Below are positions 157-28,544 of a stretch of 64,000 nt of DNA, in pieces. The stretch comes from Methyloversatilis sp. (lineage in GTDB: Bacteria; Pseudomonadota; Gammaproteobacteria; Burkholderiales; Rhodocyclaceae). Within the stretch, counting starts at the first letter, position 1. Every line of letters begins with the position of its first letter. Where the stretch lies: positions 1 to 64,000 of the forward strand of contig NZ_JAUYRO010000036.1 of assembly GCF_030696805.1 (NCBI RefSeq), in the 5' to 3' direction. Made by a program: the position numbers and the translations under genes. The notes below the pieces were generated by a model. That model was not told the origin of the DNA. It was given only the letters and a program-made list of their open reading frames with translations, and ran no database searches.

Positions 157-1134
157 CTACGTCGTCACCCCGTTCCCCGCCGCGCACACCTTCATCGACA
201 GGGTCGTTTGCGGCGGCCGCAACAACTGGTCCTGGATGTGTTGCTGGCCGTGATCGATCAGGAAGCGTTCGAATTCCTCGCCGATACCGGTGAGCTGGCG
301 CGACGCCAGCCGGATCACGTACCACTCGCGCTCGATCGGGTTGTCGGCCACCGGCAGCAGTGTCAGTTCGCCCGATTCAAGCTCGTGACGACAGATGTGT
401 TGCGACATGAACGCAAGGCCGAAACCGGCGGCGCACATCTGTTTGATCGCCTCGTTGCTGGATAGCTCGGAACCGATGCGCAGGTTCAGGTCGGCCTCGC
501 GAAACAGCTGCTCCAGCGTGGTTCGCGTGCCGGAGCCGCGTTCGCGCACCAGCAGGTCCTCCTTCGCCAGGTCGCGTAACGCGAGCCGCTTGCGCGCCAT
601 CAACGGGTGGGTGGGCGCGGCAACGAAAGCCATGGTGTGGCGGGCGAACGGCGTGGCCACCGTCTTCAGGTCCTTCGGCGGCCGACCCATGATGACCAGC
701 TCGACCTCCTGCGTGGTCAGCAGGCGCACGATCTCGTCGCGGTTGCCCACCTTGAGCTTTACCTCGACATTCGGCTGTTCGCGTGCGAACACCACCAGCA
801 TGCGCGGCACCAGGTACTCGGCGGTGGTGACCACGCCGATGCGCAGCCGGCGCGACACCACGCCCCGATAGGCGGCCATTTCGTCGCCCACCTCGCGCCA
901 CAGGTCGAGAATGCGCGCCGCGTAGTCGGCCATCAACTCGCCAGCACCGGTCAGGCGGATGCCACGACCATCGCGCTCCAGCAGCGGCGTACCGGCCGAC
1001 TCTTCCAGCAGCTTGAGCTGTATCGACACCGCCGGCTGGGTCAGGTGGATTTCGCTGGCTGCGCGCGACACGCTGCCCAGACGGGCGACCGCGTGCAGCG
1101 CAGAGAGCTGGCGTAGCGTGGCGTTCTTGAGCAT
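157..1134 (-). CDS. cbbR: CbbR, LysR-type activator of the Calvin-cycle operon
   Basis: A LysR-family transcription factor of 325 residues. The N-terminal winged helix-turn-helix (about residues 1-60, with LTQPAVSIQLKLLE in the recognition region) is followed by a substrate-binding-protein-like effector domain (about 90-300). CbbR proteins activate the divergent cbb operon in response to cellular metabolites. The gene is divergent from cbbL with about 375 bases between them, the classical CbbR arrangement. I chose the ATG at 1134 because an AGGAGA ribosome site sits about 7 bases upstream. A TTG two codons earlier is possible but poorly placed. The family call is clear and the cbb role follows from context. 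Confidence 0.93.
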   Translation of the reverse strand: MLKNATLRQLSALHAVARLGSVSRAASEIHLTQPAVSIQLKLLEESAGTPLLERDGRGIRLTGAGELMADYAARILDLWREVGDEMAAYRGVVSRRLRIGVVTTAEYLVPRMLVVFAREQPNVEVKLKVGNRDEIVRLLTTQEVELVIMGRPPKDLKTVATPFARHTMAFVAAPTHPLMARKRLALRDLAKEDLLVRERGSGTRTTLEQLFREADLNLRIGSELSSNEAIKQMCAAGFGLAFMSQHICRHELESGELTLLPVADNPIEREWYVIRLASRQLTGIGEEFERFLIDHGQQHIQDQLLRPPQTTLSMKVCAAGNGVTT

Positions 1135-2977
<1,843 letters not shown>

Positions 2978-3000
2978 CGCCGCCTGCAGGAGCGACGCCC

Positions 3001-3115
3001 TTCTCCCCTCTCCCGCATCAGCGGGAGAGGGGCCGGGGGTGAGGGAACAAGCGCCGCAGCCCTCACCCGGCGCTACGCGCCACCCTCTCCCGCTGATGCG
3101 GGCGAGGGATTGAAG
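3001..3115. repeat. REPIN-type palindromic repeat, copy 1 (cbbL-cbbS gap)
   Basis: Two palindromic units with the core CTCTCCCGCATCAGCGGGAG and its reverse complement sit in opposite orientation about 75 bases apart, so the whole block can fold into one long or two short hairpins. It fills the cbbL-cbbS gap. Closely related copies occur at 7852-7946 and 8115-8209. Such hairpins may affect transcript stability or the ratio of the large to the small subunit, which is inference. This copy differs from the other two in the spacer and has GGGCGAGG where they have GGGAGAGG. Confidence 0.85.
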
Positions 3116-3138
3116 AAACCCTATCCAGGAGAACCACC

Positions 3139-3558
3139 ATGCGCATCACCCAGGGCACCTTTTCTTACCTGCCGGACCTCACCGATTCCCAGATCGCGGC
3201 GCAGATCGACTACTGCCTCGACCAGGGCTGGGCGGTCGGCATCGAGTACACCGATGACCCGCACCCGCGCAACACCTTCTGGGACATGTACGGCAACCCG
3301 ATGTTCGACATCCGCGACGCGACCGCCATCCTGATCGAGGTGAACGCCTGCCGCGCTACCTTTCCGCAGTACTACATCCGGGTGACCGCATTCGACTCGA
3401 CGCACGGCACCGAATCCGTCGTGCTGTCGTTCATCGTGAACCGGCCCGATGCCGAACCCGGCTTCCGCCTGATCCGTACCGAAGAGCCGGGCCGCACCGT
3501 GCGCTACAGCATCGAAAGCTATGCCGTGCAGGCGCGTCCGGAAGGCGCGCGTTACTGA
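3139..3558 (+). CDS. cbbS: RubisCO small subunit, red-type
   Basis: A 139-residue small subunit that caps the L8 core of RubisCO. It starts [16 protein letters not shown] and has the long C-terminal extension (about residues 105-139) typical of red-type small subunits, which form a beta-barrel in the central channel. An AGGAGA site lies seven to eight bases before the ATG. It follows cbbL after a REPIN repeat and precedes cbbX by 14 bases. A remnant of its 5' end recurs at 7967. Confidence 0.97.
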
Positions 3559-3572
3559 AGGAGGTTTGCCTC

Positions 3573-4463
3573 ATGGACGCCGCCACCGTACCGACGACCG
3601 GAATCGCATCACCGCGCTCGATGTTCGCATCGTCCGGCGTGCAGGCGCTGCTCGACCAGCTTGACGACGAGCTGATCGGGCTGGCGCCGGTCAAGGGCCG
3701 CATCCGCGACATCGCGGCGCTGCTGCTGATCGACCGGCTGCGCGCCGAACAGGGCCTGCAGTCGACGCCGCCATCGCTGCACATGTGCTTCACCGGCAAC
3801 CCGGGCACCGGCAAGACCACGGTAGCGCTGCGCATGGCCGAGGTGCTGAAGCAGCTCGGCTATGTGCGCAAGGGTCACATGGTGGCGGTGACGCGAGACG
3901 ATCTGGTCGGCCAGTTCATCGGCCACACCGCGCCCAAGACGAAGGAAATCATCAAGAAGGCAATGGGCGGCGTGTTGTTCATCGACGAGGCCTACTACCT
4001 GTACCGGCCGGAGAACGAACGCGACTACGGTCAGGAAGCGATCGAAATCCTGCTGCAGGCGATGGAGAACCACCGGGACGATCTGGTGGTGATCCTCGCC
4101 GGCTACCGCGACCGCATGGACACCTTCTTTTCCAGCAATCCCGGCATGGCGTCGCGCATCGCGCACCACATCGACTTCCCGGACTACGACCAGGACGAAT
4201 TGATGCACATCGCCCAGCTGATGCTGCGCAACCTGAACTACCGCTTCGACGACACCGCCGAAGCGGCGTTCGAGCGCTATCTCGGCCTGCGCCGCCAGCA
4301 GCCGCACTTCGCCAACGCACGCTCGGTGCGCAACGCGCTCGACCGTATCCGGCTGCGCCACGCCACCCGGCTGTTCGCCACCGACACCGCGCCGACGCGC
4401 GACGCGCTGTGCACCTTGTATGCCGAAGACGTGCTGGCCAGCCGCGTGTTCGCAAGCGATTGA
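3573..4463 (+). CDS. cbbX: CbbX, red-type RubisCO activase (AAA+)
   Basis: An AAA+ ATPase of 296 residues that remodels red-type RubisCO and releases inhibitory sugar phosphates by pulling on the large-subunit C-terminus. The Walker A motif GNPGTGKTT is at about residues 75-83 and the Walker B motif [12 protein letters not shown] at about 130-141. The N-terminal region (about 20-60) matches the CbbX/SpoVK-like helical segment. A GGAGG site precedes the ATG. The gene lies in the canonical cbbLSX order and is probably cotranscribed and translationally close to cbbS. Confidence 0.96.
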
Positions 4464-4476
4464 AAGGAAGACCGAC

Positions 4477-5274
4477 GTGCCCGCAATCCGCCCTGACGCA
4501 CTGATCTTCGACGTCGACGGCACACTCGCCGACACCGAAGAGGCTCACCGCACCGCCTTCAACCTCGCCTTCGAACAGCAAGGGCTGGGCTGGAATTGGT
4601 CGCGCGCCGACTACCGCCGCCTGCTGACGACCACTGGCGGCAAGGAACGCATCGCCCGCCACATCGGCGCGCTTGACCTGACGGACGCCGAACGCGCCGG
4701 GCTGCTCGACCGGCTGCCGCAGATCCACGCGGCGAAGACCCGCTTCTACAGCGCCGTGGTGCGCGACGGCGCTGTGCCGCTGCGCCCGGGCGTGGCCCGC
4801 CTGCTCGACGAGGCGGGCCACGCCGGCTGCCGGCTGGCCATCGCCAGCACCACCACGGCGATCAACGTGGATGCGCTGCTGCATGCCACGCTGGGCGCGC
4901 GCGCGCTCGAACGCTTCGCCGTCATCGCCTGCGGCGACCAGGTGGCCGCGAAGAAGCCGGCGCCCGACATCTACCTGCTCGCGCTCGAGCACCTCGGCGT
5001 GCGCGCCGATCAAGCCATCGCCTTCGAAGATTCGCTCAATGGCCTGCGCGCTGCGCGCGCCGCCGGCCTTTGGACGGTGATCACGCCAACCTTCTGGACC
5101 GAAGACAGCGATTTTTCCGACGCCGATCTGGTGCTGCCGCAATTGGGCGATGCCGCCTCGCCGCTGCCGGACGAACCGGGCACCCGCCTGCGCCACCTCG
5201 CATGGCTCGGCTTCGACGAACTGTGCCGGCTGGCCGGCGGCGAGGCGCATCCGGCGGATGCCGCACTGCGATGA
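4477..5274 (+). CDS. cbbY: CbbY, HAD-family sugar-phosphate phosphatase
   Basis: A haloacid-dehalogenase-fold protein of 265 residues. Family members hydrolyse xylulose-1,5-bisphosphate, a misfire product that inhibits RubisCO. The first HAD motif [11 protein letters not shown] is near residues 10-20, and the later HAD motifs [13 protein letters not shown] and AFEDSLNG carry the conserved lysine and acidic residues. I chose the GTG start at 4477, which has an AAGGAAG site six bases upstream. An ATG at 4420 would lie inside cbbX and is rejected. The stop overlaps the next start as ATGA. Confidence 0.93.
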
Positions 5275-5975
5275 ACAGACCCCTGCGCATCGCCCCCAGC
5301 CTGCTGTCGGCCGACTTCGCCCGCCTCGGCGCCGAAGTGGCGGCCGTCATCGACGCTGGCGCCGATCTGATCCATTTCGACGTGATGGATAACCACTACG
5401 TGCCCAACCTGACCGTCGGCCCGCTGGTGTGCCAGGCGATCAAGCCCTGGGCCACGGTGCCGATCGACGTGCATCTGATGGTCAAGCCGGTCGATGCGCT
5501 GATCCCGCTGTTCGCCAACGCCGGCGCGGCCATCATTTCCTTCCACCCGGAAGCGAGCGAACACGTCGACCGCACCCTCCAGCTGATCCGCAGCCACGGC
5601 GTGAAAGCCGGCCTGGTGCTGAACCCGGCGACGCCGCTCAACGTGCTCGACCACGTGCTCGACCAGCTCGATCTGGTGCTGTTGATGTCGGTGAACCCCG
5701 GCTTCGGCGGCCAGCGCTTCATCGAGTCGGTGCTGCCGAAGATCGAGGCGGCGCGCCGGCGCATCGACGCCAGCGGCCGCAACATCTGGCTCGAAGTCGA
5801 CGGCGGCGTCAATGCCGATAACGCGGCGCAGGTGGGCGCGGCCGGCGCCGACACCCTGGTCGCCGGCTCGGCCGTGTTCACCGGCGGCCGCTACGCCGAT
5901 TCCATTCGCACGCTGCGCGAACGCGCCCTCGTGGGCCGCGCGCAGGCACTTACCGCCGAGGCCATCCATGCTTGA
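5271..5975 (+). CDS. cbbE: Ribulose-phosphate 3-epimerase
   Basis: Interconverts ribulose-5-phosphate and xylulose-5-phosphate in the regenerative part of the Calvin cycle. The 234-residue TIM-barrel begins with [15 protein letters not shown] and contains [13 protein letters not shown] (metal-binding His and Asp), the DVHLM signature, the [11 protein letters not shown] loop and EVDGGVN. The ATG overlaps the cbbY stop (ATGA), so translation is probably coupled. The 3' end overlaps cbbZ by eight bases. Confidence 0.97.
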
Positions 5976-6684
5976 CCTGTGCCACAAACCAAGCCGCATC
6001 CACGCCATCGCCTTCGATCTCGACGGCACCCTGGTCGACAGTGCCGCCGACATCTGGCACGCGCTGAACTTCGGTCTGTCGCAGGCCGGCCTGCCCGCTG
6101 TCGATCTCGTCACCGTGCGTGGCTGGATCGGCGGCGGGCCGGATCGGCTGATCTCGCGCGCACTCGACCATCTCGGCCTCGCGCACAGCGACGGCACGCT
6201 GCACGCCCGGCTGCGCGCCGATTTCGACCACGCCACGCTGGAGGCGCCGCTCGATCACGGCATGGTCTATGACGGTATCGAAGAAATGGTCGAAGGCCTG
6301 TACGCCATCTGCCCGCTGGTGGTGGTGACCAACAAGCCGACGCCGCTGGCGCGTGCGGTACTCGGCGCCGCCGGCCTGCTGCCCTTCATGTCGTCGGTCT
6401 ACGGCGGCGACCGCAGCGAACTGCTCAAACCCTCGCCCGCGCTGCTTGAGGCCGCCGCTACCCGGCTCGCAGTGAATCCGGCGCAACTGCTGATGGTCGG
6501 CGACAGTTCAGCCGACCTGCTTGCTGCGCAGGCCGCCGGCTGCCCGGTCGCGCTGGTGGGCTGGGGATACGGGACAGCGGGGGGAGCGCACGCCAGCGCA
6601 CCCGGCGTCGACGCCTGGCCGGTCGGCTCGCCGTCGCAACTGCTCGCGGAAATGAGCGCGCGCTTCAAGGAAGAGACCGAATAG
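5968..6684 (+). CDS. cbbZ: Phosphoglycolate phosphatase
   Basis: A HAD hydrolase of 238 residues that removes 2-phosphoglycolate, the product of the RubisCO oxygenase reaction. HAD motif [15 protein letters not shown] is at about residues 15-28, motif II VVTNKPT is near 118, and the C-terminal acidic motif is [12 protein letters not shown]. The small helical cap lies between motifs I and II as in Gph proteins. The start overlaps the end of cbbE. The order E-Z-F-P-T differs from the E-F-P-T-Z order I recall for Cupriavidus. Confidence 0.95.
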
Positions 6685-6769: not shown

Positions 6770-7843
6770 ATGCCCACAGGCGGACGCACCACGCTGGTCC
6801 AGTACCTGATCGAAGAACGCCGCCGTCACCCCGAGGCGACCGGCGACCTCAATGCGCTGATCACGGACGTCGCGCTCGCCTGCAAGGCGATTTCGCGCAA
6901 GGTGGCTTTCGGCGGCCTGGCCGGGGTACTTGGCTCGGCTGGCAGCGGCAATGTGCAGGGAGAGGAACAGAAGACGCTGGACCTGCTCAGCAACCAGATC
7001 TTCCTGCGCGCCAACGAATGGGGCGGCCACGTCGCCGCCATGGCGTCGGAAGAACTGGACGACATCGCGCTGCTGCCGGCGCAGTACCCGCGCGGCAAAT
7101 ACCTGCTCGCCTTCGACCCGCTCGACGGCTCGTCCAACATCGACGTGAACGTGTCGGTCGGCAGCATCTTTTCGATCACCCGCGCGCGCACGCCGGGTGA
7201 GGACGCGAAGACGGCCGACTTCCTGCAGGCAGGGCGCGAACAGGTGTGCGCCGGCTACGCCATCTACGGCCCGTCTACCATGCTGGTGCTGACGCTGGGC
7301 CGCGGCACGCACGCCTTCACGCTGGACCCGATGCTCGGCGAATGGGTGCTCAGCCACCCCGACCTGAAGGTACCGGCCGCGACGCGCGAATTCGCGATCA
7401 ATGCGTCGAACAGCCGCTTCTGGGAGCCGGCGGTGCGCCGCTACGTCGACGAGTGTCTGGCCGGGCGCACCGGCCCGCGCGGCGCCGACTTCAACATGCG
7501 CTGGATCGCCTCTCTGGTAGCCGAAACGCACCGCATCCTGATGCGCGGCGGCGTGTTCCTCTACCCGAAGGACAACAAGGATCCGGCCAAGCCCGGCCGC
7601 CTGCGCCTGCTCTACGAAGCCAGTCCGATCGCCTTCCTGATCGAACAGGCGGGCGGCATGGCCAGCACCGGACGCAGCCGGCTGATGGACGTGCAGCCCG
7701 AGTCGCTGCACCAGCGCATCGGCTTCGTGTTCGGCTCCAGCGAAGAAGTCTCGCGCATCGAGGCCTACCACCGCGAACCGCCGGCCGACACCTTCCAGTC
7801 ACCGCTGTTCGGCAAACGCGGCCTGTTCGCCGACGCCGTCTGA
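6770..7843 (+). CDS. cbbF: Fructose-1,6-bisphosphatase class I
   Basis: Hydrolyses fructose-1,6-bisphosphate, and in some proteobacteria related enzymes also act in sedoheptulose-bisphosphate hydrolysis. The protein has 357 residues. The metal-binding signature [17 protein letters not shown] is at about residues 113-130 and the sugar-phosphate contact region EQAGGMAST near 290. A strong GGGAGGAGAG site precedes the ATG. A degenerate copy of the [15 protein letters not shown] segment (about residues 212-226) recurs at 13363-13410. The gene is followed by a REPIN repeat. Confidence 0.97.
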
Positions 7844-8238: not shown

Positions 8239-9129
8239 ATGTCAGTGAAACACCCCATCGTTGCCATCACCGGCTCGTCCGGCGCCGGCACCACGTCGGT
8301 CACGCGCACCTTCGAGAACATTTTCCGCCGCGAGAACGTGGCCGCCGCCCTCATCGAAGGCGACAGCTATCACCGCTACGACCGCACCGAAATGAAGCGC
8401 ATGATGGCCGATGCGGAAGCCGGCGGCAGTGCGCAGTTCAGCCCGCACTTCAGCCACTTCGGCGAAGAGGCCAACCTGTTTGCCGAACTGGAACAGTTGT
8501 TCCGCGACTACTCGGAAAGCGGCGGCGGACGCAGCCGCAAGTACCTGCACAACGACGACGAAGCCGCGCCGTACAAACAGCCGGCCGGCACCTTCACGCC
8601 ATGGGAGCCGCTGCCGGCGAGCGACCTGCTGTTCTACGAAGGCCTGCACGGCGGCGTGAAGACAGAACATGTTGATGTATCCCGGTACGCCGATCTGCTG
8701 ATCGGCGTGGTGCCTGTCATCAACCTCGAGTGGATCCAGAAGATCCACCGGGACCGCAGCACCCGCGGCTATTCCACCGAAGCCGTGACCGACGTCATCC
8801 TGCGGCGCATGCACGACTACGTGCATTACATCTGCCCGCAATTCACGCGCACGCACATCAACTTCCAGCGCGTGCCGGTGGTGGACACCAGCGACCCGTT
8901 CATCGCCCGCACCATTCCGACTGCCGACGAAAGCCTGGTGGTGATCCGCTTTTCGAATCCGCGTGGCTTCGACTTTCCCTACCTGCTCAGCATGCTGCAC
9001 GACTCGTTCATGTCGCGCGCCAACACGCTGGTGGTGCCGGGCGGAAAGATGGAACTGGCTATGCAGCTCATCTTCACGCCGATGATCCTGCGCCTGCTGG
9101 AACGCCGTCGGCAGCAACTGGCCGCCTGA
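8239..9129 (+). CDS. cbbP: Phosphoribulokinase
   Basis: Phosphorylates ribulose-5-phosphate with ATP to make the RubisCO substrate, the committed step of the cycle. The protein has 296 residues and the proteobacterial (class I) architecture: the P-loop ITGSSGAGTTS at about residues 9-19, the substrate-binding stretch EGDSYHRYDR near 40, and FYEGLHGG near 130. I chose the ATG at 8239, preceded by AAAAGGA. An in-frame ATG 12 codons upstream lacks family similarity. A fossil of its first 19 codons lies at 13429. Confidence 0.97.
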   Translation: MSVKHPIVAITGSSGAGTTSVTRTFENIFRRENVAAALIEGDSYHRYDRTEMKRMMADAEAGGSAQFSPHFSHFGEEANLFAELEQLFRDYSESGGGRSRKYLHNDDEAAPYKQPAGTFTPWEPLPASDLLFYEGLHGGVKTEHVDVSRYADLLIGVVPVINLEWIQKIHRDRSTRGYSTEAVTDVILRRMHDYVHYICPQFTRTHINFQRVPVVDTSDPFIARTIPTADESLVVIRFSNPRGFDFPYLLSMLHDSFMSRANTLVVPGGKMELAMQLIFTPMILRLLERRRQQLAA

Positions 9130-9142
9130 AGGGATGACCGCC

Positions 9143-11212
9143 ATGAACGACGCAAACCGGATCCTGCGCAGGCAATGCGCCAATGCACTGCGCGTACTCG
9201 CGATGGACGCGGTGCAGGCCGCCAATTCCGGCCACCCCGGCATGCCGATGGGCATGGCCGACATCGCCGAGGCGCTGTGGCGCCACCACCTGAAGCATGA
9301 CCCGGCCGACCCGCACTGGCCCGACCGCGACCGCTTCGTGTTGTCCAACGGCCACGGCTCGATGCTGCTGTACGCGCTGCTTCACCTCTGCGGCTACGAC
9401 CTGCCGATGGACGAGCTGCGGCGCTTCCGCCAACTGCATTCGCGCACGCCCGGCCACCCCGAGGTCGACATCACGCCGGGCGTGGAAACGACCACCGGTC
9501 CGCTCGGCCAGGGCCTGGCCAACGCGGTCGGCATGGCGCTGGCGGAAAAGCTGCTCGCCGCGGAATTCAACCGCCCCGGCCACCCCGTGGTCGATCACCG
9601 CACCTGGGTATTCCTCGGCGACGGCTGCCTGATGGAAGGCATCAGCCACGAAGTGTGTTCGCTCGCCGGCACCTGGAAGCTGAACAAGCTGGTCGCCTTC
9701 TACGACGACAACGGCATTTCGATCGACGGCGACGTCGCCGGCTGGTTCACCGACGACACGCCGGCCCGCTTCGAAGCCTACGGCTGGACAGTGGTGCGCA
9801 ATGTCGACGGCCACGACGCGGCGGCGCTGGACGCGGCGATCGAAGCGGCGCTGCGCAGCGAACGCCCGGTGCTGGTGTGCTGCAAAACGAGTATCGGTTA
9901 CGGCTCGCCGAACCGCGCCGGCAGCGCCAAGGCGCACGGCGAGGCGCTGGGCGACGCAGAAATCGCGCTCACCCGCGAGGCGCTGGGCTGGACGGCACCG
10001 CCGTTCGAAATACCCGCCGCGCTGCAGTCCGCCTGGTCGGCGCGCGCCCGCGGCGCGCTCGCCCACCGCGACTGGCAACAACGCTTCGAGCACTACGCCG
10101 GGGCCTTCCCGGAACTGGCGGCCGAACTGCAGCGGCGGCTGCGCCGCGACGCGCCGCCGTCGTCGGAGGCGTTGCGCGCGCTCGAAGCCGCCTGCGACGC
10201 GGCCGAACTGCGCGCCGCAACGGTGGCCACGCGCAAGGCCTCGCAGGACGTGCTGCACATCGTGGCACCGGCGATGCCGGAACTGCTCGGCGGCTCGGCC
10301 GACCTGACCGGTTCCAACCTCACCGACTGGAAGGGCCACCGGCCGCTCAAGGGCGAAGGCACGGGCAACCACGTGCATTACGGCGTGCGCGAATTCGGCA
10401 TGTCGGCGCTGATGAACGGCGTCGCGCTGCACGGTGGCTACCGGCCCTACGGCGGCACCTTCCTCACCTTTTCCGACTATTCGCGCAACGCCATCCGCAT
10501 GTCGGCGCTGATGCACCTGCCGGTGGTGTACGTGTTCACGCACGACTCGATCGGGCTGGGCGAAGACGGCCCGACGCACCAGCCGGTGGAACACGCGTCC
10601 AGCCTGCGGCTGATTCCGGACGTCGACGTGTGGCGCCCGTGCGACGCCACCGAAACGGCGGTGGCATGGCGCGAAGCGCTGCGCCGCGGCGCCACCCCGC
10701 GACCCGGCCCCTCCTGCCTGCTGCTGACCCGCCAGGCGCTGCCGCACGCCGGCGACGGCACGGCGCGCGTCGACGACATCGCCCGCGGCGGCTATGTGCT
10801 GCGCCGGCCGCGCGGCGAACGGCTGTGCCTGATCGCCACCGGTTCCGAAGTCGGCCTGGCGCTGCGCGCCGCCGACCTGCTGGCCGCCGAAGGCCTGCCG
10901 GCGCGCGTGGTGTCGATGCCCTGCGTCGAAGCGTTCGAGCGGCAGGACGCGCGCTGGAAGCAGGACGTCATTCCGCGCCACCTGCCCCGCCTGGCGATCG
11001 AGGCCGGCAGCACCGGCCTGTGGTGGAAGTACGTCGGCGAGCCGGGCGTCAGCGGCGACGTGGTCGGGCTCGACCGCTTCGGCGAATCGGCGCCGGCGGG
11101 CGAACTGTTCGCGCTGTTCGGCCTCACCGCCGAAGCGCTGCACGAACGCGCCCGCGCGCTGATCGACGCGGTGCCTGCCGCCGGCCGCGACGCGCTGTCG
11201 CTGCACGGCTGA
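9143..11212 (+). CDS. cbbT: Transketolase
   Basis: A thiamine-diphosphate enzyme that moves two-carbon ketol units between Calvin-cycle sugar phosphates. It has 689 residues. The N-terminal ThDP domain has SGHPGMPMG near residue 28, the GDGCLMEGISHE cofactor motif near 157, and the substrate histidines. The pyrimidine-binding domain has GEDGPTHQPVEH near 470, and the C-terminal domain begins near 545. The ATG at 9143 is favoured because AAGGG lies about nine bases upstream. An ATG at 9134 has no room for a ribosome site. Its stop overlaps the next start (ATGATG region, one base shared). Confidence 0.96.
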   Translation: MNDANRILRRQCANALRVLAMDAVQAANSGHPGMPMGMADIAEALWRHHLKHDPADPHWPDRDRFVLSNGHGSMLLYALLHLCGYDLPMDELRRFRQLHSRTPGHPEVDITPGVETTTGPLGQGLANAVGMALAEKLLAAEFNRPGHPVVDHRTWVFLGDGCLMEGISHEVCSLAGTWKLNKLVAFYDDNGISIDGDVAGWFTDDTPARFEAYGWTVVRNVDGHDAAALDAAIEAALRSERPVLVCCKTSIGYGSPNRAGSAKAHGEALGDAEIALTREALGWTAPPFEIPAALQSAWSARARGALAHRDWQQRFEHYAGAFPELAAELQRRLRRDAPPSSEALRALEAACDAAELRAATVATRKASQDVLHIVAPAMPELLGGSADLTGSNLTDWKGHRPLKGEGTGNHVHYGVREFGMSALMNGVALHGGYRPYGGTFLTFSDYSRNAIRMSALMHLPVVYVFTHDSIGLGEDGPTHQPVEHASSLRLIPDVDVWRPCDATETAVAWREALRRGATPRPGPSCLLLTRQALPHAGDGTARVDDIARGGYVLRRPRGERLCLIATGSEVGLALRAADLLAAEGLPARVVSMPCVEAFERQDARWKQDVIPRHLPRLAIEAGSTGLWWKYVGEPGVSGDVVGLDRFGESAPAGELFALFGLTAEALHERARALIDAVPAAGRDALSLHG

Positions 11213-12105
11213 TGGTGCGCGCGCGCATCGCCATCGACGGCGGCGGCGGCCTCGCGCGCAGCGTGCTCGACGCGCTGCGCGGCGCCGCCGGGCTCGAACT
11301 CGTGATCATCAACGGGCACGACGACGGTGCGGATGCCGGGGCTGCCGGCGTTCCGACCAGCCGTGTGCGTGACGCCCGCCGCCTGCCGTGGAAACGGCAC
11401 GCCGTCGATATCGTGCTCGATTGTTGCGGGCGCGATGCGAGGGTGCATCTGGCGGCGGGCGCGCGCAAGGTGCTCAGTTGCGCCGCCGCCGGCACGGCGG
11501 CCGACGCCACCGTGGTCTATGGCGTCAACCACGGCGCGCTGCGCGACACGCATGCGAGCGTGCACAGCGCCTGCCGCGCCACCCACGCCATCGCGCCGGT
11601 GGCGCGCCTGCTGCATGACGCGCTGGGCATTTCCAACGCCATGCTGACCGCGGTGCACAGCCGCCCGCACGACGGCGCCATCGCGCTGCCCGGTGCCACC
11701 GGTGCTGCCGCGCACCTGCACCGCGTGCTACCCGAACTGAACCACTGCTTCGACGAAACCGAGCCGATGCGCATACCCGGCGCGCACGCGTCGCTGATCG
11801 GCATGGTGTTCGTGGCGCAGCGCGCAACGACGGTCGAAGAGGTCAACGCGCTGATGCAGACCGCCGCCTTCGGCGACTGGGCCGCACTGCTGCGCTACGC
11901 CGACACGCCCTTCACCACCGCGCTGTCGGCGCGCGACACGCGGTCGAGCGTGTTCGAAGCGGGCTGGACCCAGGTGTCGGGCCGCGTCGTGAAGGTGTGC
12001 GCCGGCTATCGCGGCGACCACGGCTTCGCGCACCGGCTGGTCGACACCGTGCGGGCGATGGCGCACCTCCCTGCCCACCTCCCTGCACACGTCCCGGCGC
12101 AATGA
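11212..12105 (+). CDS. Divergent GAPDH-like protein A with displaced catalytic Cys
   Basis: This 297-residue protein has a recognisable glyceraldehyde-3-phosphate dehydrogenase frame but is degenerate. [17 protein letters not shown] corresponds to the NAD Rossmann loop [18 protein letters not shown] to VDIVIECTG, and GVNH and [10 protein letters not shown] to the helix after the active site. The active-site motif SCTTNCLAP is replaced by [10 protein letters not shown], so Arg stands where catalytic Cys is expected and Cys sits one place earlier. About 35 residues of the N-domain and about 20 of the C-domain S-loop are missing. The NAD-contacting Asp after the second strand and the Asn in the C-terminal helix are also lost. 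The C-terminus ends in a short [11 protein letters not shown] repeat. The start overlaps the cbbT stop, so it is expressed with the operon. A normal GAPDH reaction is unlikely; a regulatory or scaffold role is inference. Confidence 0.8.
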
Positions 12106-12167
12106 CGGCAAACGGCGCCCGGACGACCCACATTTACTGGATACAGACCCACCCGGAGGAGTTTCAC

Positions 12168-13184
12168 ATGGCAATGATTTCACTGCGGCAACTGCTGGAC
12201 CACGCCGCCGAAAACGCCTATGGCGTACCGGCGTTCAACATCAACAACCTCGAACAGATCCAGGCCATCATGCAGGCGGCGCAGAAGGTGAATGCGCCGG
12301 TCATCCTGCAGGCCTCGGCCGGCGCCCGCAAATACGCCGGCGAACCCTTCCTGCGCCGGATGGTGGAGGCGGCCGCCGAAATGTACCCGGACATTCCCAT
12401 CGTCATGCACCAGGACCATGGCGCCAGCCCGGCCGTGTGCGTACAGTCGATCCGCTCCGGCTTCACCAGCGTCATGATGGACGGCTCGCTGATGGAAGAC
12501 GCGAAGACGCCCGCCAGCTACGACTACAACATCGAAGTGACGCGCCGCGTGGTCGACATCGCGCACGCCGTCGGCGTGTCGGTCGAGGGCGAACTGGGCT
12601 GCCTCGGCTCGCTCGAATCGGGTACCGCCGGCGAGGAAGACGGCGTCGGCGCGGCCGGCGTGCTGACGCACGAACAGATGCTGACCGACCCGGAACAGGC
12701 CGCCGACTTCGTCGCCGCCACCGGCGTGGACGCGCTGGCGATCGCCATCGGCACCAGCCACGGCGCCTACAAGTTCTCCCGCAAGCCAACCGGCGACATC
12801 CTCGCCATCGACCGCATCAAGGCCATCCACGCCCGCCTGCCTAACACCCACCTGGTGATGCACGGATCGAGCAGCGTGCCGCAGGACTGGCTGGCGGTGA
12901 TCCGCGAACACGGCGGCGACATCAGGCAAACCTACGGGGTGCCGGTCGAAGAGATCCAGGAAGGCATACGCCACGGCGTGCGCAAGGTGAACATCGACAC
13001 CGACATCCGCCTCGCGATGACCGGCGCCATGCGCCGCGCAATGGCCCGCGACCCGTCCGAATTCGACCCGCGCAAATTTCTCAAGGACGCCACCATCGCC
13101 GCCCGCGACCTGTGCATCGACCGCTTCGAAGCCTTCGGCTGCGCCGGCATGGCCGGACGCATCGTGTTGCGCGCAGCGGCCTGA
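12168..13184 (+). CDS. cbbA: Fructose/sedoheptulose-bisphosphate aldolase class II
   Basis: Condenses triose phosphates, and erythrose-4-phosphate with DHAP, in the Calvin cycle. It has 338 residues and the zinc-dependent class II fold. Visible motifs are [13 protein letters not shown] near residue 19, the zinc-ligand region VMHQDHG near 80, a second zinc ligand region GELGCLG near 140, and the HGSSSVPQ and [10 protein letters not shown] phosphate-binding motifs in the C-terminal half. I chose the ATG at 12168, which has a GGAGGAG site. Longer upstream frames read into GAPDH-like A and are rejected. It lies between the two GAPDH-like genes. Confidence 0.95.
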
Positions 13185-13252
13185 CCCCTGCTGCTATCCA
13201 GAAACGGGCCCGGCCCGCGATGCGGCGGTCGATCGGCCGCCCCCCGCACCGG

Positions 13253-13374
13253 ATCGTCCTCGATCCGCGGAAGGGCGTTTGCGCCGCATACGGCAAGAGC
13301 GGAGACTTCAGCCCCTTGCGACCGTGCGGGGTCATGAGCTTCACCGTGTCTCGGGATGGCTGAACAGCCGCTTC
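13253..13374 (-). pseudogene. Fragment of a UvrD-type helicase gene
   Basis: On the minus strand this translates as DTVKLMTPHGRKGLKSP followed by a decayed tail. It aligns with DTVKLMTMHSSKGLEFP in the intact helicase at 14421-16280 (its C-terminal motif V-VI region, about 14569-14690). DNA-level matches include a shared GGTCATGAGCTT core. Only about 120 bases are present, bounded by unrelated DNA, so it is a diverged partial copy in the same orientation about 1.3 kb from the source. Confidence 0.75.
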
Positions 13375-13410
13375 CGGGAACCGGCGTTCGCGCGCTATGT
13401 CGATGAGTAA
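13363..13410 (+). pseudogene. Fragment of cbbF (FBPase)
   Basis: The plus-strand frame reads NSRFREPAFARYVDE then stop, compared with [15 protein letters not shown] in the intact cbbF around 7411. Only about 15 codons are kept, ended by a TAA. It abuts the helicase fragment, sharing about 12 bases with its end, and is followed 18 bases later by a cbbP fragment, the same order as the intact cbbF-cbbP. Confidence 0.72.
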
Positions 13411-13428
13411 AGTCATCGCGAGGTTTTC

Positions 13429-13488
13429 ATGTCGGTCAGGCATCCCATCATTTCGATTACGGGCCCGTCCGGCGCGGGTACGACATGA
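13429..13488 (+). pseudogene. Fragment of the cbbP 5' end
   Basis: An open frame of 19 codons reads MSVRHPIISITGPSGAGTT and then stops. It matches the first 19 residues of the intact phosphoribulokinase (MSVKHPIVAITGSSGAGTT), including the P-loop. The substitutions are mostly conservative (K/R, V/I, A/S), and a GAGG ribosome site is kept. The stop overlaps the start of GAPDH-like B as ATGA, so the fragment could still be translated as a coupling leader. It may be a fossil of a second, now deleted cbbFP copy. Confidence 0.78.
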
Positions 13489-14321
13489 GGCGGATCGCCA
13501 TCGACGGCTGCGGGCGCACTGCGCGCGACGCGCGGGCGGCAATCTGCACGCACCCGGCCTTCTGCGCCAACGGCGGGCTGGAACTGGTCAGCGTGACGGC
13601 GCGCGGCGATGCCGCTGGCGAGGCCACGCCCGCCTGGGGCAAACACGGTGTCGACATCGTGCTCGATTGTTCGGGCGGCGACCCGCGACGGCACCTCGCA
13701 GCCGGCGCCACCAAGGTGCTGTGCGGCGCGCCGGCTAGCGGCTTCGCGTTCGACGGCATGGTGGTGTTCGGCGTGAACCACATGCGGATCGACGGCTCGC
13801 ATCGCCTGCTGCACGGCGCTTGCAGTGCCACCCACGGCATCGCGCCCGTGGCACGCCTGCTGCACTACGCAGTGGGCATCGAACACGCCGTCATCACGCC
13901 GATGCACGACGTGCAGCACTGTGCCGGCATCGCCTGTGGGTGCGCAGGCAGCGTGGCCGCGCAGCTGCAGCAGGTGCTGCCCCGCCTGCCGGGCACGCTG
14001 GACGAAACACCGCCGGTGCATGTGCCGGACTGCGATCTCGTGCTGCTCGGCATGGTGTTCGCCGCCGGGCGCGAAACCAGCGTGGAAGAAGTGAATGCGC
14101 TCATCCAGTGCGCCAGCTTCGGCGCCTACGACGACCTGCTGCGCTACTGCGACGGCCCGGTCGCCGGCAGATCCGGCGCGGCCGACCTGCACTCGTGCCT
14201 GTTCCAGGCGGCGCTGACCCAGGTGTCGGGCCGCATCGTCAAGGTGTGCGCCGGCTACCGCAGCGAACTGGGCTACGCGCGCCGGCTGGTCGATACACTG
14301 GAAGTGATGGCACGCGTCTGA
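13485..14321 (+). CDS. Divergent GAPDH-like protein B with displaced catalytic Cys
   Basis: A 278-residue paralogue of GAPDH-like protein A. IAIDGCGRTARDA replaces the Rossmann loop, VDIVLDCSGG and GVNH are kept, and the active-site region reads [16 protein letters not shown]. Ser therefore stands at the catalytic Cys position and Cys one place upstream, the same displacement as in A. The C-terminal [19 protein letters not shown] matches the GAPDH motif VKVVSWYDNEWGYSNRVVD but lacks the NAD-binding Asn. The usual S-loop is missing. The protein is Cys-rich for its size. The shared oddities of A and B imply a common altered ancestor. The ATG overlaps the stop of the cbbP fossil. The function is unknown. 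Confidence 0.78.
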   Translation: MRRIAIDGCGRTARDARAAICTHPAFCANGGLELVSVTARGDAAGEATPAWGKHGVDIVLDCSGGDPRRHLAAGATKVLCGAPASGFAFDGMVVFGVNHMRIDGSHRLLHGACSATHGIAPVARLLHYAVGIEHAVITPMHDVQHCAGIACGCAGSVAAQLQQVLPRLPGTLDETPPVHVPDCDLVLLGMVFAAGRETSVEEVNALIQCASFGAYDDLLRYCDGPVAGRSGAADLHSCLFQAALTQVSGRIVKVCAGYRSELGYARRLVDTLEVMARV

Positions 14322-14420: not shown

Positions 14421-16280
14421 CTACAGACCCGCACCGCCCTGCATGGCCTTCAGACGCGCAGCGAATCCCCGTTCGGCGGAGGCCGTCACCAGCAGGCGCT
14501 CGGTCGAACGCGTCATGGCGACATACAGCAGCTTGGCGTCGGCAGCCACCCTGTCCGCGTCGTCTTCCGCCCGCGGCAGGGTGTGGGCGCCGCACACGAC
14601 CACAAACGGAAATTCCAGCCCCTTGCTGCTGTGCATGGTCATGAGCTTAACCGTGTCCTCGGACGGGCTGAAACGACGCTTCGACTTCGAGTCGGACAGC
14701 CAGTGCACAGGGATCGATGACGCTCTCAGGTAGCGATGAAGGCGGTCACCGATGTACGTGTCGGGGCAGGCGATGCACATGTCGGCCCACGCCAGGCCGC
14801 GTTCCGCATGCATCTTCTTCAGCGTGCGCGTGATGAGCGCCATTTCATCGCCCTCCGACTCGAGGATGCGCAGCACCGGCGGCGGACCGCGGCGGCCACT
14901 CGACTGCGGCTCGATCAGCGGCACGTGGTCGTCGTCGGCATCGGCTGCGGTCAGGTAGGCACGCGCAAAGTCATAGGCGAAGCGGATCACGTCCTCGGTG
15001 TTGCGGTAGTTGAGCTTGAGCACCGTGCTGCGGCCGCGCGCCTGTATGCCCACGCTGGACAGACTGAAGTCGAGACCGCCGCGCTTGCCGTAGATGGACT
15101 GCGCATCGTCGTACAGCATCAGGAAGGCGTTGGTTTCCGGATCGACCATGCCGACGACGAGGCGCAACCATTCGGGCGCGAAGTCATGCCCCTCGTCGAT
15201 CATCACGGCGCCGTACTGACCGCGCGGAATGAAACCCTTGTCGACGGCGGCGATCACGGCGGACACGACACGATCGAAATAGTCCTGACCGGCCGCGGGG
15301 CGTTCGACGTGATAGGTCCGCAACTGTTCGCTGCACCAGTCGTGGAAGTGATACACGCTCACCTTGTCGGCCAGGCCGCGGGTGGCGATGAGATCGCGCA
15401 GGCGCGCCGCCAGCGCGATGTTGTAGCAGAGCACGAGAATGGGTCTGGCAAGCACGCGGGCCAGATGCAGGCAGCGGTAGCCGAGGATGAGCGTCTTTCC
15501 GGAACCGGCCACGCCATGGATGACGCGGTGCCCCTCACCCAGGCTGCGCGCCAGCAGCTCCTGCTGCATGTCCATCACCTTGACGAGATCCGGCAACACG
15601 CTGTCGTCCGCTGCGTCGTCGTCCGCAGCGGCAAAAAGATCGGCCTGCTGATGACCGATGCGCACCTCCGGAAACAGATGCCAGCGTATGCGGTCGATCT
15701 GCGGCAGCGTGAGGCTCTGCGGGAAGCTCACGTCGAACATGTTCCACAGCTGCTGCTGGAAGGCTTCGGCATCGCTCGCCTCGCGCATTTCGTCGGCGCA
15801 GATCACGCGATGGGGCGGCAGCACATCCGCGAGATCGGTGGCTTCGAACTGTTTGCGCGTCATGCCGCTGAGCACCACGCCATAGCCCCACGGCAGCACG
15901 AGCTTGCCCCGGTGCCGGCCGTCGTGCTGAACCAGCTGCGGATCGCGCTCCAGGTCGCCGATCAGCTGATAGGCGCACTGCCTGACCTGCTCCAGCGGAT
16001 TGCTCACCACCCTCGGGCCGGCCTCGGTCAGAAGCTGCACGGATACGCGGTCGATGGACTGTATGGTGGCCAGGCGCCAATCCTTCACCTCGAGCAGCAA
16101 CAGGCCGCGGCGGGGGTGCAGGACGATGAAGTCCGAGTAGCGTCGGCGGGCGCCGACCGGCATGTCGTACCAGCACAGGTAGTCGTCTTCGAGCTTGTCT
16201 TCGAGACGCTGCGCAAAACGTCGTTCGCCCGCCTGCATGCGGGATGCGCAGGCGGTGTATGAAGGAATGAGCGTGGCCAT
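14421..16280 (-). CDS. NERD-domain / UvrD-type helicase
   Basis: A superfamily 1 DNA helicase-like protein of 619 residues. The N-terminal part (about 15-110) resembles the NERD nuclease-related domain, with YSDFIVLHP and LLLLEVKDW carrying the Asp/Glu-x-Lys acidic core. The Walker A motif GVAGSGKT is near residue 260, the DEGH Walker B near 360, YDDAQSIYGKR near 390, and the C-terminal helicase motifs KLMTMHSSKGLEFP and YVAMTRSTERL near 540-600. Such proteins are linked to DNA repair or defence, but the function here is not known. It is convergent with GAPDH-like B, about 100 bases away. Confidence 0.88.
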   Translation of the reverse strand: MATLIPSYTACASRMQAGERRFAQRLEDKLEDDYLCWYDMPVGARRRYSDFIVLHPRRGLLLLEVKDWRLATIQSIDRVSVQLLTEAGPRVVSNPLEQVRQCAYQLIGDLERDPQLVQHDGRHRGKLVLPWGYGVVLSGMTRKQFEATDLADVLPPHRVICADEMREASDAEAFQQQLWNMFDVSFPQSLTLPQIDRIRWHLFPEVRIGHQQADLFAAADDDAADDSVLPDLVKVMDMQQELLARSLGEGHRVIHGVAGSGKTLILGYRCLHLARVLARPILVLCYNIALAARLRDLIATRGLADKVSVYHFHDWCSEQLRTYHVERPAAGQDYFDRVVSAVIAAVDKGFIPRGQYGAVMIDEGHDFAPEWLRLVVGMVDPETNAFLMLYDDAQSIYGKRGGLDFSLSSVGIQARGRSTVLKLNYRNTEDVIRFAYDFARAYLTAADADDDHVPLIEPQSSGRRGPPPVLRILESEGDEMALITRTLKKMHAERGLAWADMCIACPDTYIGDRLHRYLRASSIPVHWLSDSKSKRRFSPSEDTVKLMTMHSSKGLEFPFVVVCGAHTLPRAEDDADRVAADAKLLYVAMTRSTERLLVTASAERGFAARLKAMQGGAGL

Positions 16281-19206: not shown

Positions 19207-20070
19207 TCAGGCGGACGCCTCTCCCGCCTGCAGCGCCTTCAGCGTTCGGCCCTGCGCATCCTTCCACTCAACCCGGCCGTTGGCGCTGCGTCCGAGCACC
19301 ACGGCTGCGGCGGTGGAGGGCGAAGTGAACACATAGTCCTGCGAGAAGCGGTATCCATCTCCGTCCCTCGCCATCACGCCATTGCCTATCAGCTGCTGCC
19401 GCAGGTCGTACATGCCGCGCACATGTTGTTGCATCGACGGCACCGTATCGCCCACCGCAAGCGACCCGGCCCGGACAACGAACCCCTGACTGGCTTCGAA
19501 GCCGGACGCAGTGATGCCCTTCCCCCTCAGCACCAGTGATGGCGTGACAGCGGCGGCGGGTTGCACACCCTTTTCGAAGGCATGTACCCCCATCACCGGC
19601 AACATGCCGAGCACGTTCTCCAGAAACACCAGCATGTCTGCCCGGTCGGCCTCGGATAGGCTGGGCTCCATGGGCTGGTTGCCGTTATCCAGCGGCACCC
19701 GCCTGGCAGCCTTCGCCATCCGGATCAGGTTGGCTTCGAGAAACTGCACATGTGCCTTGTTGAGCTGGCCCGGCGCGGCGATGAAGCAGAGCGCGTGGGT
19801 CCAGAAATCCTTGTGAGCGTAATGACACTCCAGTCGCGGGCGCACCGGGTCGCCCTCACCGATGTAGAGCAGATCGCCCTCGCCATCTTCGCGCGGGCCG
19901 ATCAGCAGATAGACGCCCGTCTGCTTCAACTCGTCGCGCTCCTTCACGCGCGGCAGCAACGCTCGCGGAAACATCAATGCCTTGCCGATCCAGTTCGAAC
20001 GCTCCACCACGCGCAGTCCGTCCGGGTCGCCGTCGGCGACGAAGATGCGCAGCGAGAATGGTTTGTTCAT
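19207..20070 (-). CDS. GIY-YIG nuclease-like protein with DUF4357
   Basis: A 287-residue protein. The N-terminal half (about residues 48-130) has a GIY-YIG-like pattern: TGVYLLIG, then LLYIGEGDPVRPRL and a later Glu in QFLEANLI, the usual order of catalytic elements. The C-terminal part (about 185-280) resembles DUF4357, with FVVRAGS and a tail GRTLKAL. Proteins of this kind are commonly found next to restriction-modification genes. The ATG overlaps the rhuM stop by four bases (ATGA) and has an AGGAAAA site, so the two genes are probably coupled. Its role in defence is inferred from position. Confidence 0.8.
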   Translation of the reverse strand: MNKPFSLRIFVADGDPDGLRVVERSNWIGKALMFPRALLPRVKERDELKQTGVYLLIGPREDGEGDLLYIGEGDPVRPRLECHYAHKDFWTHALCFIAAPGQLNKAHVQFLEANLIRMAKAARRVPLDNGNQPMEPSLSEADRADMLVFLENVLGMLPVMGVHAFEKGVQPAAAVTPSLVLRGKGITASGFEASQGFVVRAGSLAVGDTVPSMQQHVRGMYDLRQQLIGNGVMARDGDGYRFSQDYVFTSPSTAAAVVLGRSANGRVEWKDAQGRTLKALQAGEASA

Positions 20071-21119
20071 GTCTTTTTCCTCGACCGGGGGTACGGTGCA
20101 GGCAGTGCCTTGGCCGCCTCTTCCAGCATGTTCACGTTGTGCTCGGCGCCTTCGGCTTCGAGCAGTGCGCGGCGCTGCGCGGCGAAACGTTCGTACTCCA
20201 CTTGCGCGCGTGCGTCGGCCTGCTGTTTCGACACCTTGCCGGCATCCGGCAGGACATTGCGGTCGTTGAAACGCAGGAAGGCATCGAGCTTGTCTTCCCA
20301 GTCCTTCAGAAAGATGTCCTTGCGCCGCCGCGCCTGGTCGTCGGCGAAGTCCAGCCACATGACGACAATACGGTTCAGCTCGTCGATCTCGTTCTCGCGC
20401 AGGTAGTTCTTCGCCACCGTTACGTCGGACTTGCGGACCGTGCCTGATTTCGAACTGGTAAGGCCCATGTTCGGCAGGCTGCTGTCGGCGCGTTCGACTA
20501 TCAGCTGAGCCGCCGTCTTGCCGGTCACCGCGAAGTGCAGCTTGTTCTGGATGATCTGGAAGAACTTTGTCGTTTCCGCCAGTGACGGCGAGTAATCCGC
20601 CGCCATCGCGAAAATCTCCCGCACCCGCAGATACATGCGCCGCTCGCTGGCGCGGATGTCGCGGATGCGTTCGAGCAGTTCGTCGAAGCGGTCCGGTGCG
20701 CCCGAATCGGCGACGGGTGGATTCTTCAATCTCTCGTCATCGAGCGTGAAGCCCTTGACCAGATACTCGCTGAGCCGCTCGGTCGCCCAGCGACGGAACT
20801 GCGTGCCGCGTGCCGAACGCACCCGATAGCCGACGGCGAGAATGGCATCGAGGCTGTAGTGGTCGATGTTGCGGCTGACCTCACGACTGCCTTCGGATCG
20901 AACTATCCGGAACTTCCGGATAGTTGCCTCGGACACAAGCTCGCCCTCGTCGTAGATGTTCCGAAGATGCTCATTGATCGTGCGAACGTCCTTCTGGAAC
21001 AGTTCCGCCATCAGCGCCTGTGTCAGCCAGAGTGTGTCGGCCGTGAAGCGGCATTCCACGCGCGTCTTGCCATCGTCGCTCTCGAACAGCAGGAATTCGC
21101 CGCTGGGTTGATCAGTCAT
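20067..21119 (-). CDS. rhuM: RhuM family protein
   Basis: A 350-residue protein of the RhuM (virulence-related, DUF1016-neighbour type) family often found beside type I restriction systems and phage genes. The N-terminal DNA-binding-like region contains WLTQALMAELFQKDVRTINE (about 31-50). The central conserved blocks are SREVSRNIDHYSLDAILAVG and VRSARGTQFRRWA (about 85-120). The C-terminal half is charged and probably coiled (about 270-345). The biochemical function is unknown. It lies about 100 bases downstream of hsdR and overlaps the GIY-YIG gene. A truncated paralogue is at 36911-37480. Confidence 0.87.
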   Translation of the reverse strand: MTDQPSGEFLLFESDDGKTRVECRFTADTLWLTQALMAELFQKDVRTINEHLRNIYDEGELVSEATIRKFRIVRSEGSREVSRNIDHYSLDAILAVGYRVRSARGTQFRRWATERLSEYLVKGFTLDDERLKNPPVADSGAPDRFDELLERIRDIRASERRMYLRVREIFAMAADYSPSLAETTKFFQIIQNKLHFAVTGKTAAQLIVERADSSLPNMGLTSSKSGTVRKSDVTVAKNYLRENEIDELNRIVVMWLDFADDQARRRKDIFLKDWEDKLDAFLRFNDRNVLPDAGKVSKQQADARAQVEYERFAAQRRALLEAEGAEHNVNMLEEAAKALPAPYPRSRKKT

Positions 21120-21221
21120 GTCGCACACGTGGAAGGGGGCTAAGAAGCGATCGCGGGCAGTTGCAGCGCGGGCGCGCCAGACAAGGCGAAGGCAAGGCAG
21201 CAACAGACAAGGTCGCGCCAC

Positions 21222-24200: not shown

Positions 24201-24398
24201 GTCCTCGCGCGCCGGCGCGGGAATCGCCGGGTTCAGCCGCGCGATCGCGCTGCGCAGCCGCCCTTCCAGCACCACCTCCCGGTAGTGGCCGCGCTCCGGG
24301 CGGCTGCCGTCAGGCGCCAGATCCGGGCCGTCGAGCGGCGTGTAGCCGACGTCGGCCAGCCAGCCCAGCACTTCCTGTTCGAGGTGTTCTTCGGTCAC
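21222..24398 (-). CDS. hsdR: Type I restriction enzyme, R subunit
   Basis: The motor and nuclease subunit of a type I restriction system, 1058 residues. The N-terminal nuclease domain has the PD-(D/E)xK-like [19 protein letters not shown] (about 137-155). The SF2 translocase has the Walker A-like [11 protein letters not shown] near 300, DEAHR near 415 and FTGTP near 490, and later motifs include [12 protein letters not shown] near 670. The C-terminal helical region contacts HsdM. I chose the GTG at 24398 because its first bases overlap the stop of the upstream HEPN gene as GTGA. The open frame extends 16 codons further but lies inside that gene. It acts with HsdM2S. Confidence 0.95.
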
Positions 24399-24853
24399 GG
24401 TTGCGCCTTGCTCGCCAGCAACTCCGGGCGATTCCTGCGCAACCACGTCTGCGTATGTTCAAGAAGCAAAGCCGCCTGCCTGCAGCATTCAGTCACGGCA
24501 CTATCGCTGACCGGATCGCCCTCGTAGTCGTTCAGGTTGCGTTGCTTGCGCAGGGCGTCCAGCACGATCACGGCGTCCCGCTCCAGCCCCAGCGTCTTTG
24601 GCAATACCTGCAAGGCGGTCTGGTGATGGCCGGGCTGGCTGGTCGATGTACGGTAGCCATTGGCCCACAAGCCAATCATCGCGCACTGCATGACGGCCTT
24701 GTAGGCCGCATCAAACCGGTTTTCCGAACTGAGCGCCTCGATCCCGGCATCCGCCAGGTTACGGCTGGCCGCAGCCAGCAGGCGTTGCACGCCAGCCGCG
24801 CTCGCTTCAAAGCTTTGCAGCTTGTGAATCGCCAGCAAGTTTTCCAAGTTCAT
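24395..24853 (-). CDS. HEPN-domain protein, probable toxin of a HEPN-MNT pair
   Basis: A small, mainly helical protein of 152 residues. It resembles HEPN proteins: residues 37-75 include [20 protein letters not shown], and the late motif [12 protein letters not shown] is the place where HEPN RNases keep an R-x4-6-H-type motif. Here Asn/Asp/Tyr occupy the position of the usual His. It overlaps the upstream nucleotidyltransferase gene by 47 bases and the downstream hsdR by four bases. Known HEPN-MNT systems pair an RNase toxin with an antitoxin that modifies it. Assignment as a toxin is inference. Confidence 0.75.
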
Positions 24854-25415: not shown

Positions 25416-25440
25416 AGTCGTAGCTCCATTGGCTCCGACT

Positions 25441-25520: not shown

Positions 25521-25610
25521 CTATCAGCCACTGCATGTACGCGAAGTTCGCAATCGTCGGCCCGACATGAGCCCCGACCGAACCAATGGGTACCAAGTGA
25601 AGGTTTGCAG

Positions 25611-26909: not shown

Positions 26910-28464
<1,555 letters not shown>

Positions 28465-28544
28465 GGGGTTCCAGGTCGTGGTCGGCGTGCGCCGACTGAC
28501 CTGCACACGCGCAGCCATCGGGCACCCGCGCGACTGTAACCACA

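Follow-up and report, generated by a model that had tools for sequence, protein, structure and literature searches.

Remodelled CbbG-like proteins without the catalytic cysteine in Calvin operons of Methyloversatilis, probably retained as pseudoenzymes

CbbG and its GAPDH-like counterparts

Few enzymes are as highly conserved as glyceraldehyde-3-phosphate dehydrogenase (GAPDH), and the cbbG genes of Calvin operons are usually named by homology and position. In some phototrophs, a complex of GAPDH, CP12, and phosphoribulokinase (PRK) occurs. The present analysis deals with a Calvin operon of Methyloversatilis sp., a member of a genus of methanol-using bacteria, in the first 64,000 nucleotides of contig NZ_JAUYRO010000036.1 (assembly GCF_030696805.1), the whole stretch being denoted here as the window, and with two GAPDH-like genes, GL1 and GL2, that flank cbbA in this operon. 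As judged from alignments, these genes and their relatives in the genus (GL genes) are shortened GAPDH homologues without the catalytic Cys, most NAD contacts, and the S-loop. They look like remodelled CbbG and are probably pseudoenzymes that descend from the cbbG of an operon of the cbbRLSXYEZFPTGKA type and have been retained as a non-catalytic component.

With CbbG, the type I GAPDH of Calvin operons, the GL proteins share the slot after cbbT, several sequence blocks, and the C-terminal domain. Whereas CbbG is intact, GL has lost the equivalents of Cys, Thr150, and Asn152 as well as most NAD contacts, the S-loop, and a portion of the NAD domain. Erythrose-4-phosphate dehydrogenase (E4PDH; Epd) resembles GL as its top NCBIfam match, from which GL differs by a low score and a missing active-site Cys. 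The GAPDH-CP12-PRK complex provides a likeness of another kind, in that the Calvin operon encodes a protein of the GAPDH fold next to PRK or in its vicinity; it differs by the presence of CP12 and of a catalytic GAPDH. CP12 was found in none of 15 genomes, the same search in 14 control genomes being positive in Synechococcus only.

For M. universalis FAM5, the gene list of PMC5023235 gives an operon in the order CbbR L S X Y E Pgp F P T G A, in which 'CbbG, METUNv1_750054' is tabulated as GAPDH. This gene occupies the same slot as GL1 and is very probably its orthologue, as judged from operon position and gene order (PMC5023235). A literature search revealed no Calvin operon of bacteria with an inactive GAPDH, a weak negative since the search was confined to open papers.

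Loss of the active site and descent from CbbG

Both GAPDH-like open frames flanking cbbA, as described in the original prediction, were confirmed (Table 1). The Pfam C-terminal domain Gp_dh_C (PF02800) is recognized in GL1 and GL2 with 61.9 and 42.7 bits, above the cut-off of 24.4, and the N-terminal NAD-binding domain (PF00044) stays with 25 and 15.2 bits below its cut-off of 31.7. A GL-family profile retrieves solved GAPDHs (best E-value 2e-62); this match and the score of the C-terminal domain imply that the homology of GL to GAPDH is not due to chance. By E-value, the top NCBIfam match is an E4PDH model for GL1 as well as for GL2. Both proteins lie below every listed NCBIfam cut-off for GAPDH or E4PDH, with at best 126.4 bits versus 546 for a GAPDH model and 96-132 bits versus 531-539 for the E4PDH models PRK13535 and TIGR01532.

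At the position equivalent to C155, the catalytic Cys in the canonical GAPDH of this genome, the 13 GL genes encode Arg (seven), Ser (five), or Gly (one), whereas Cys is present in 42/42 canonical rows of the alignment. These rows comprise the genome's own GAPDH from contig C69, the CbbG of genome G740, and the first 40 of 72 others in a thinned set; they were prefiltered for SCTTN, more than 300 aligned columns, and no stop, so that the contrast rests on an unfiltered check of 204 matches in 200 loci. There, SCTTN is found in all 166 non-GL matches and in none of the 13 GL genes, copies of which make up the other 38; the 204 are matches, not genes, one gene being repeated across many loci. 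The original prediction had placed a Cys one residue ahead of the catalytic position, which holds for 12 of the 13 genes and fails in G009, where Asn-Gly is found. The equivalents of Thr150 and Asn152 are Ala and His in every GL gene, that of Asn313 is Gly or Ser (13/13), and the catalytic His is retained in 11 (Tyr in G004, Leu in G011); the residue roles and the Bacillus numbering behind this comparison are those we take to apply to GAPDH. Also in agreement with the prediction, the S-loop is deleted in all 13 genes and the NAD-contact residues are mostly replaced, with much of the NAD domain deleted beyond the second strand. The glycine loop survives in part (first Gly in 13/13, second in 12/13). 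The phosphate-site residues T213, G214, and R236 are kept in 7/7 GL1 and correspond to G, S, and H in GL2 and to N, G, and V in G009.

Canonical GAPDH shows 150 conserved columns, 38 of which are retained in GL; of the others, 81 are variable, 22 deleted, and nine newly fixed, i.e. at least 95% conserved in the 42 canonical rows and occupied by a single new residue in 13/13 GL rows. The newly fixed residues include G14A, T156A, N158H, W315G, and D317R, and several of them presumably lie at the old active site or the cofactor loops. Restoration of the catalytic Cys by a local gap, which would have spoken against the original prediction, is contradicted by the alignment: the stretch from GVNH to IAPVA is of equal length in both families and contains no gap, and such a restoration would take one insertion and one deletion.

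Descent from cbbG is illustrated by G740 (locus L216), a genome of another family, with the series cbbR-L-X-Y-E-Z-F-P-T-G-K-A and a canonical, SCTTN-encoding cbbG (L216:9786-10781) that is 42% identical to GL1. Its product is the top match outside the genus listed for the GL profile (244.7 bits; the next reaches 229.6). In G740, cbbK follows cbbG, whereas GL1 is not followed by cbbK, and a pgk search revealed none in the window nor in ten loci of the genus (L034-L043). The operon of G321 (L196) shows the same series without G and K, with a cbbT-cbbA gap of about 55 bp and a cbbA 87% identical to that of the window; cbbG, cbbK, and GL were not found in it. In a tree from a quick search over 86 rows (73 canonical ones, thinned from 149 by shared 4-mers, and 13 GL), all GL rows group together (SH-aLRT 100) next to G740 CbbG, and the 72 other canonical rows are set apart from both (94). 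With midpoint rooting, the GL stem branch amounts to 2.1 changes per column.

Distribution, operon forms and selection

GL1 orthologues are found in seven and GL2 orthologues in five of 13 genus genomes, both in two of them, and G009 carries a third, divergent GL gene. RuBisCO is present in 11 of the 13, and GL in exactly the same 11; G002 and G007 harbor neither, in line with PMC5023235, according to which only the serine cycle is present in M. thermotolerans. A widely shared GL family is not indicated by searches in which scoring was limited to the 6, 8, or 16 top-ranking first-look candidates of each genome and which gave no GL-like match beyond the genus. In a family sample (297 genomes), only the 11 GL-bearing genomes match at E 1e-60, and in the family of G321 (150 genomes) the one match at this threshold is G740 CbbG, with SCTTN; both searches would miss GL weaker than E 1e-60. 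In an order sample (399 genomes), the best match outside the genus reaches 229.6 bits versus 470-508 for the window's genes. A plasmid search returned 214 records, none of which reaches 60% identity; the 25 matches listed are 32-41% identical. A genome scan with a two-row alignment matched at least 80 loci, the 80 retained being at most 40% identical, by patterns common to ordinary GAPDHs, and supplied canonical rows only. Canonical GAPDH is found in 12/13 genus genomes; G006 (91% complete) shows only GL2, possibly owing to an assembly gap. As a separate observation, a second GAPDH paralogue with a very long branch (2.81) is located beside the canonical gap gene in G031 (L198:7705-8691).

The operon occurs in two forms. 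The long form, cbbL..X-Y-E-Z-F-P-T-GL1-A, is present in G001, G004, G005, and G010, and in G003 as far as its short contig reaches (P-T-GL1-A). The short form, cbbL..X-Z-F-P-GL, is devoid of cbbY, cbbE, cbbT, and cbbA and keeps GL in four of four genomes (G006, G011, G012, G009); weak cbbY matches in these loci fall on the cbbZ gene. In the window and in G008, a fragment of a UvrD gene, 19 codons of cbbP, and GL2 come after the long form. Compared in 400-bp steps, positions 1601-4400 of the window (cbbL to cbbX) are 93-97% identical to short-form G011/G012 versus 73-93% to long-form G001/G005/G010; from cbbY to cbbA the closest match is usually the long form, before the short form takes this place once more around GL2. 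Unlike its surroundings, the tract at 8801-9200 (3' end of cbbP) is 91-93% identical to short-form versus 88-89% to long-form genomes, possibly through gene conversion. The PRK relic is 83% identical over 48-54 bases to short-form cbbP (32-36 bits) and 84% over 32 bases to long-form G005 (24 bits); since it matches both forms, its source is less sure. These similarities are read as a short-form operon that would have received a recombined long-form cbbY-cbbA segment, with the end of the old operon left behind.

Synonymous divergence (dS) is 0.55-0.67 for three GL1-GL2 pairs versus 0.52-0.66 for long-short cbbP/cbbF pairs with G012. Because dS between the forms is alike for GL, cbbP, cbbF, and cbbZ, GL1 and GL2 appear to have split with the operon forms; cbbL and cbbX show lower values (0.35-0.38 versus G012), and the GL values with G009 exceed 1 and are saturated. 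GL1 and GL2, 49% identical as proteins, are probably alleles of the two forms brought together in a hybrid operon. The original prediction had dated the shared displacement of the Cys before a duplication, and a tandem duplication has both synteny and dS against it.

All 13 GL genes are open, without an internal stop. The ratio of nonsynonymous to synonymous divergence (dN/dS; Nei-Gojobori, pair list fixed beforehand) is 0.12-0.41 in seven GL1 pairs and 0.13-0.24 in six GL2 pairs, next to 0.02-0.18 for cbbP (10 pairs), 0.05-0.18 for cbbT (seven), and 0.02-0.20 for cbbA (seven); cbbZ (10 pairs, 0.09-0.45) and EamA (10 pairs, 0.03-0.36) are as loose as GL in the same loci. The neutral proportion is rejected in 8/8 GL pairs tested (p 2e-2 to 3e-14) by a test that ignores codon bias (GC content at third codon positions 0.86-0.91 in 12 GL genes, 0.74 in G009) and whose pairs share branches; GL1 of the window versus that of G008 is the weakest pair (15 and 13 changes). 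Even GL2 behind the hybrid operon is constrained (dN/dS 0.19, p 2e-8). The earlier claim of long retention under selection is thus supported. Between the forms, dN/dS is 0.64-0.78 for GL1-GL2 (three pairs) versus 0.13-0.17 for cbbP (three long-short pairs), and dN is 0.41-0.46 for GL versus 0.09 for PRK. These values indicate that GL diverged fast when the forms split and was then kept under purifying selection within each form. The GL genes combine catalytic-residue loss with purifying selection, as expected of a pseudoenzyme.

Table 1. Features of the Calvin operon region in the window. Operon family assignments come from a library scan, outside which cbbS and cbbR lie.
Feature	Position	Strand	Basis
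Presumed cbbR, label by position	157..1140	-	homologues adjoin cbbL in L040-L043, L196, L216
cbbL, RuBisCO large subunit, approximate start	1526..2977	+	family scan
cbbX, AAA protein, last gene of short-form segment	3573..4463	+	family scan
cbbY-like HAD hydrolase, first gene of long-form segment, name by position	4420..5274	+	family scan
cbbE, ribulose-phosphate 3-epimerase, start codon assumed	5271..5975	+	family scan
cbbZ-like HAD hydrolase, start codon assumed	5968..6684	+	family by scan; name by position (Pgp in the gene list of PMC5023235)
cbbF, fructose-1,6-bisphosphatase	6770..7843	+	family scan
cbbP, phosphoribulokinase (PRK)	8239..9129	+	family scan
cbbT, transketolase	9134..11212	+	family scan
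GL1, GAPDH-like protein of 297 aa occupying the cbbG slot, flanked by cbbT and cbbA, Cys to Arg	11212..12105	+	open frame, family profile, synteny, alignment
cbbA, class II fructose-bisphosphate aldolase	12168..13184	+	family scan
UvrD-like helicase gene fragment, two overlapping pieces	13232..13407	-	
cbbP 5'-end relic, 19 codons then stop; TGA overlaps GL2 ATG	13429..13488	+	
GL2, GAPDH-like protein, 278 aa, probable allele of the short operon form, Cys to Ser	13485..14321	+	open frame, family profile, synteny, alignment

The ATG of GL1 shares one A with the TGA of cbbT, and cbbA and GL2 are spaced by 300 bp. The pieces of the UvrD fragment are 57% and 50% identical to residues 528-581 of the NERD/UvrD protein encoded at 14421-16280, too little for a recent copy of that gene. 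Further downstream (19207-30061), the window harbors a type I restriction-modification set with HsdR (21222-24446), HsdS (25611-26909), and HsdM (26899-28545), alongside RhuM-like, DUF4357, and HipA-like genes.

Retention, rival explanations and possible role

Descent from cbbG, loss of the active site, co-occurrence with RuBisCO, constraint, and the hybrid origin of the two copies are supported. In the proposed course of events, cbbK would have left the operon on the way to the genus, and cbbG would have been stripped of the NAD site, the S-loop, and the catalytic Cys, with the gap gene in the tkt-gap-pgk-pyk-fba cluster providing GAPDH activity. The GAPDH-fold protein would have stayed in the operon as a non-catalytic component, changing fast as the operon split into long and short forms and being constrained within each thereafter. 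It would be produced and act by binding, most likely to a Calvin-cycle protein of the same operon, via the emptied cofactor/active-site cleft or the former subunit interface.

The main rival is a slow decay of cbbG after the loss of cbbK and the takeover by a second GAPDH, with the gene drifting under weak selection and persisting only since its disruption is slightly harmful, e.g. for the translation of cbbA, which lies close downstream of GL1; we consider this possible, if unlikely. The stem branch of 2.1 changes per column, the variable length of the N-terminal part, and the 81 of 150 otherwise conserved columns that now vary would fit such a decay, and so would three findings that at the same time weigh against retained pseudoenzymes: the dN/dS of GL is mostly higher than that of cbbP, cbbT, and cbbA, the ratio of 0.64-0.78 between GL1 and GL2 also fits relaxed selection, and GL is missing from the related G321 operon. 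Several more points weigh against the reading as pseudoenzymes. Long branches and an unusual composition of the GL rows prompt warnings from the tree program, and the small divergence of PRK beside the large one of GL gives no sign of tight GL-PRK co-evolution. According to the expression values given in PMC5023235, where the limit for an expressed gene is 50 RPKM (reads per kilobase per million), FAM5 CbbG reaches 17.5 and 19.6 RPKM versus about 1,500 for the housekeeping Gapdh, and most operon genes stay below 50 on methanol and methylamine, CbbR (about 190), CbbL (about 130), and CbbA (about 70) being above it. Decay is nevertheless countered by the 13 open frames, the rejection of neutrality in all eight pairs, GL dN/dS values inside the ranges shown by the cbbZ and EamA genes at these loci, and the newly fixed residues. 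Polarity on cbbA cannot explain retention in the short form, where GL is the last cbb gene, and GL2, a remnant downstream of the hybrid operon, is under constraint all the same.

A new enzyme, with the cleft rebuilt for another reaction or substrate, appears improbable. Its catalytic residues might be His158, Arg317, and the Glu232-Thr233 pair, joined in most copies by Cys154. The newly fixed residues, part of which presumably lie at the old active site or the cofactor loops, would suit this idea, as would GL1, which keeps T213, G214, and R236 in 7/7 and gains an Arg at the Cys position; the cofactor site is gone, however, and conservation across the forms, as expected of an active site, is lacking for Cys154, for the former catalytic His, and for the phosphate-site residues. 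That GL still functions as a GAPDH or E4PDH with a shifted Cys is disfavoured and very hard to maintain: its best NCBIfam matches are E4PDH and GAPDH models, but the scores are far under the curated cut-offs (best 132 versus 539 bits), the equivalents of Cys, Thr150, Asn152, and Asn313 are lost together with the S-loop, and G009 has no Cys at the site at all.

If GL is a non-catalytic component, the loss of catalysis, the tie to RuBisCO, the presence without cbbT and cbbA, and the constraint would fit a binding role in the RuBisCO-PRK half. PRK is the first candidate partner, since it is the neighbour of GL in the short form and is present in every form; this is a guess, and we hold it tentatively. 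The operon transketolase, proposed earlier as a partner, is unlikely in a general role and cannot be a necessary one, as short operons have GL and no cbbT. A further, rather doubtful possibility is that CbbG turned into a cofactor-free regulatory protein, whose rebuilt cleft would sense a sugar phosphate and control PRK or the RuBisCO supply without CP12. The sensing idea derives from the Arg at the old Cys position and the phosphate-site residues kept in GL1. Taken together with that reading, and equally doubtful, GL might represent an independent bacterial answer to GAPDH-PRK regulation.

Nearly all RuBisCO-bearing genomes in the genus sample carry a 'CbbG' that, by its sequence, is unable to work as GAPDH, and every stage is in view: an operon with intact cbbG, an operon without it, two forms with a remodelled gene, and a hybrid. 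Whatever its role, GL is probably counted wrongly where annotations and models treat it as GAPDH. Should GL bind PRK or another Calvin-cycle enzyme, GAPDH itself would have given rise to a regulator that works independently of CP12.

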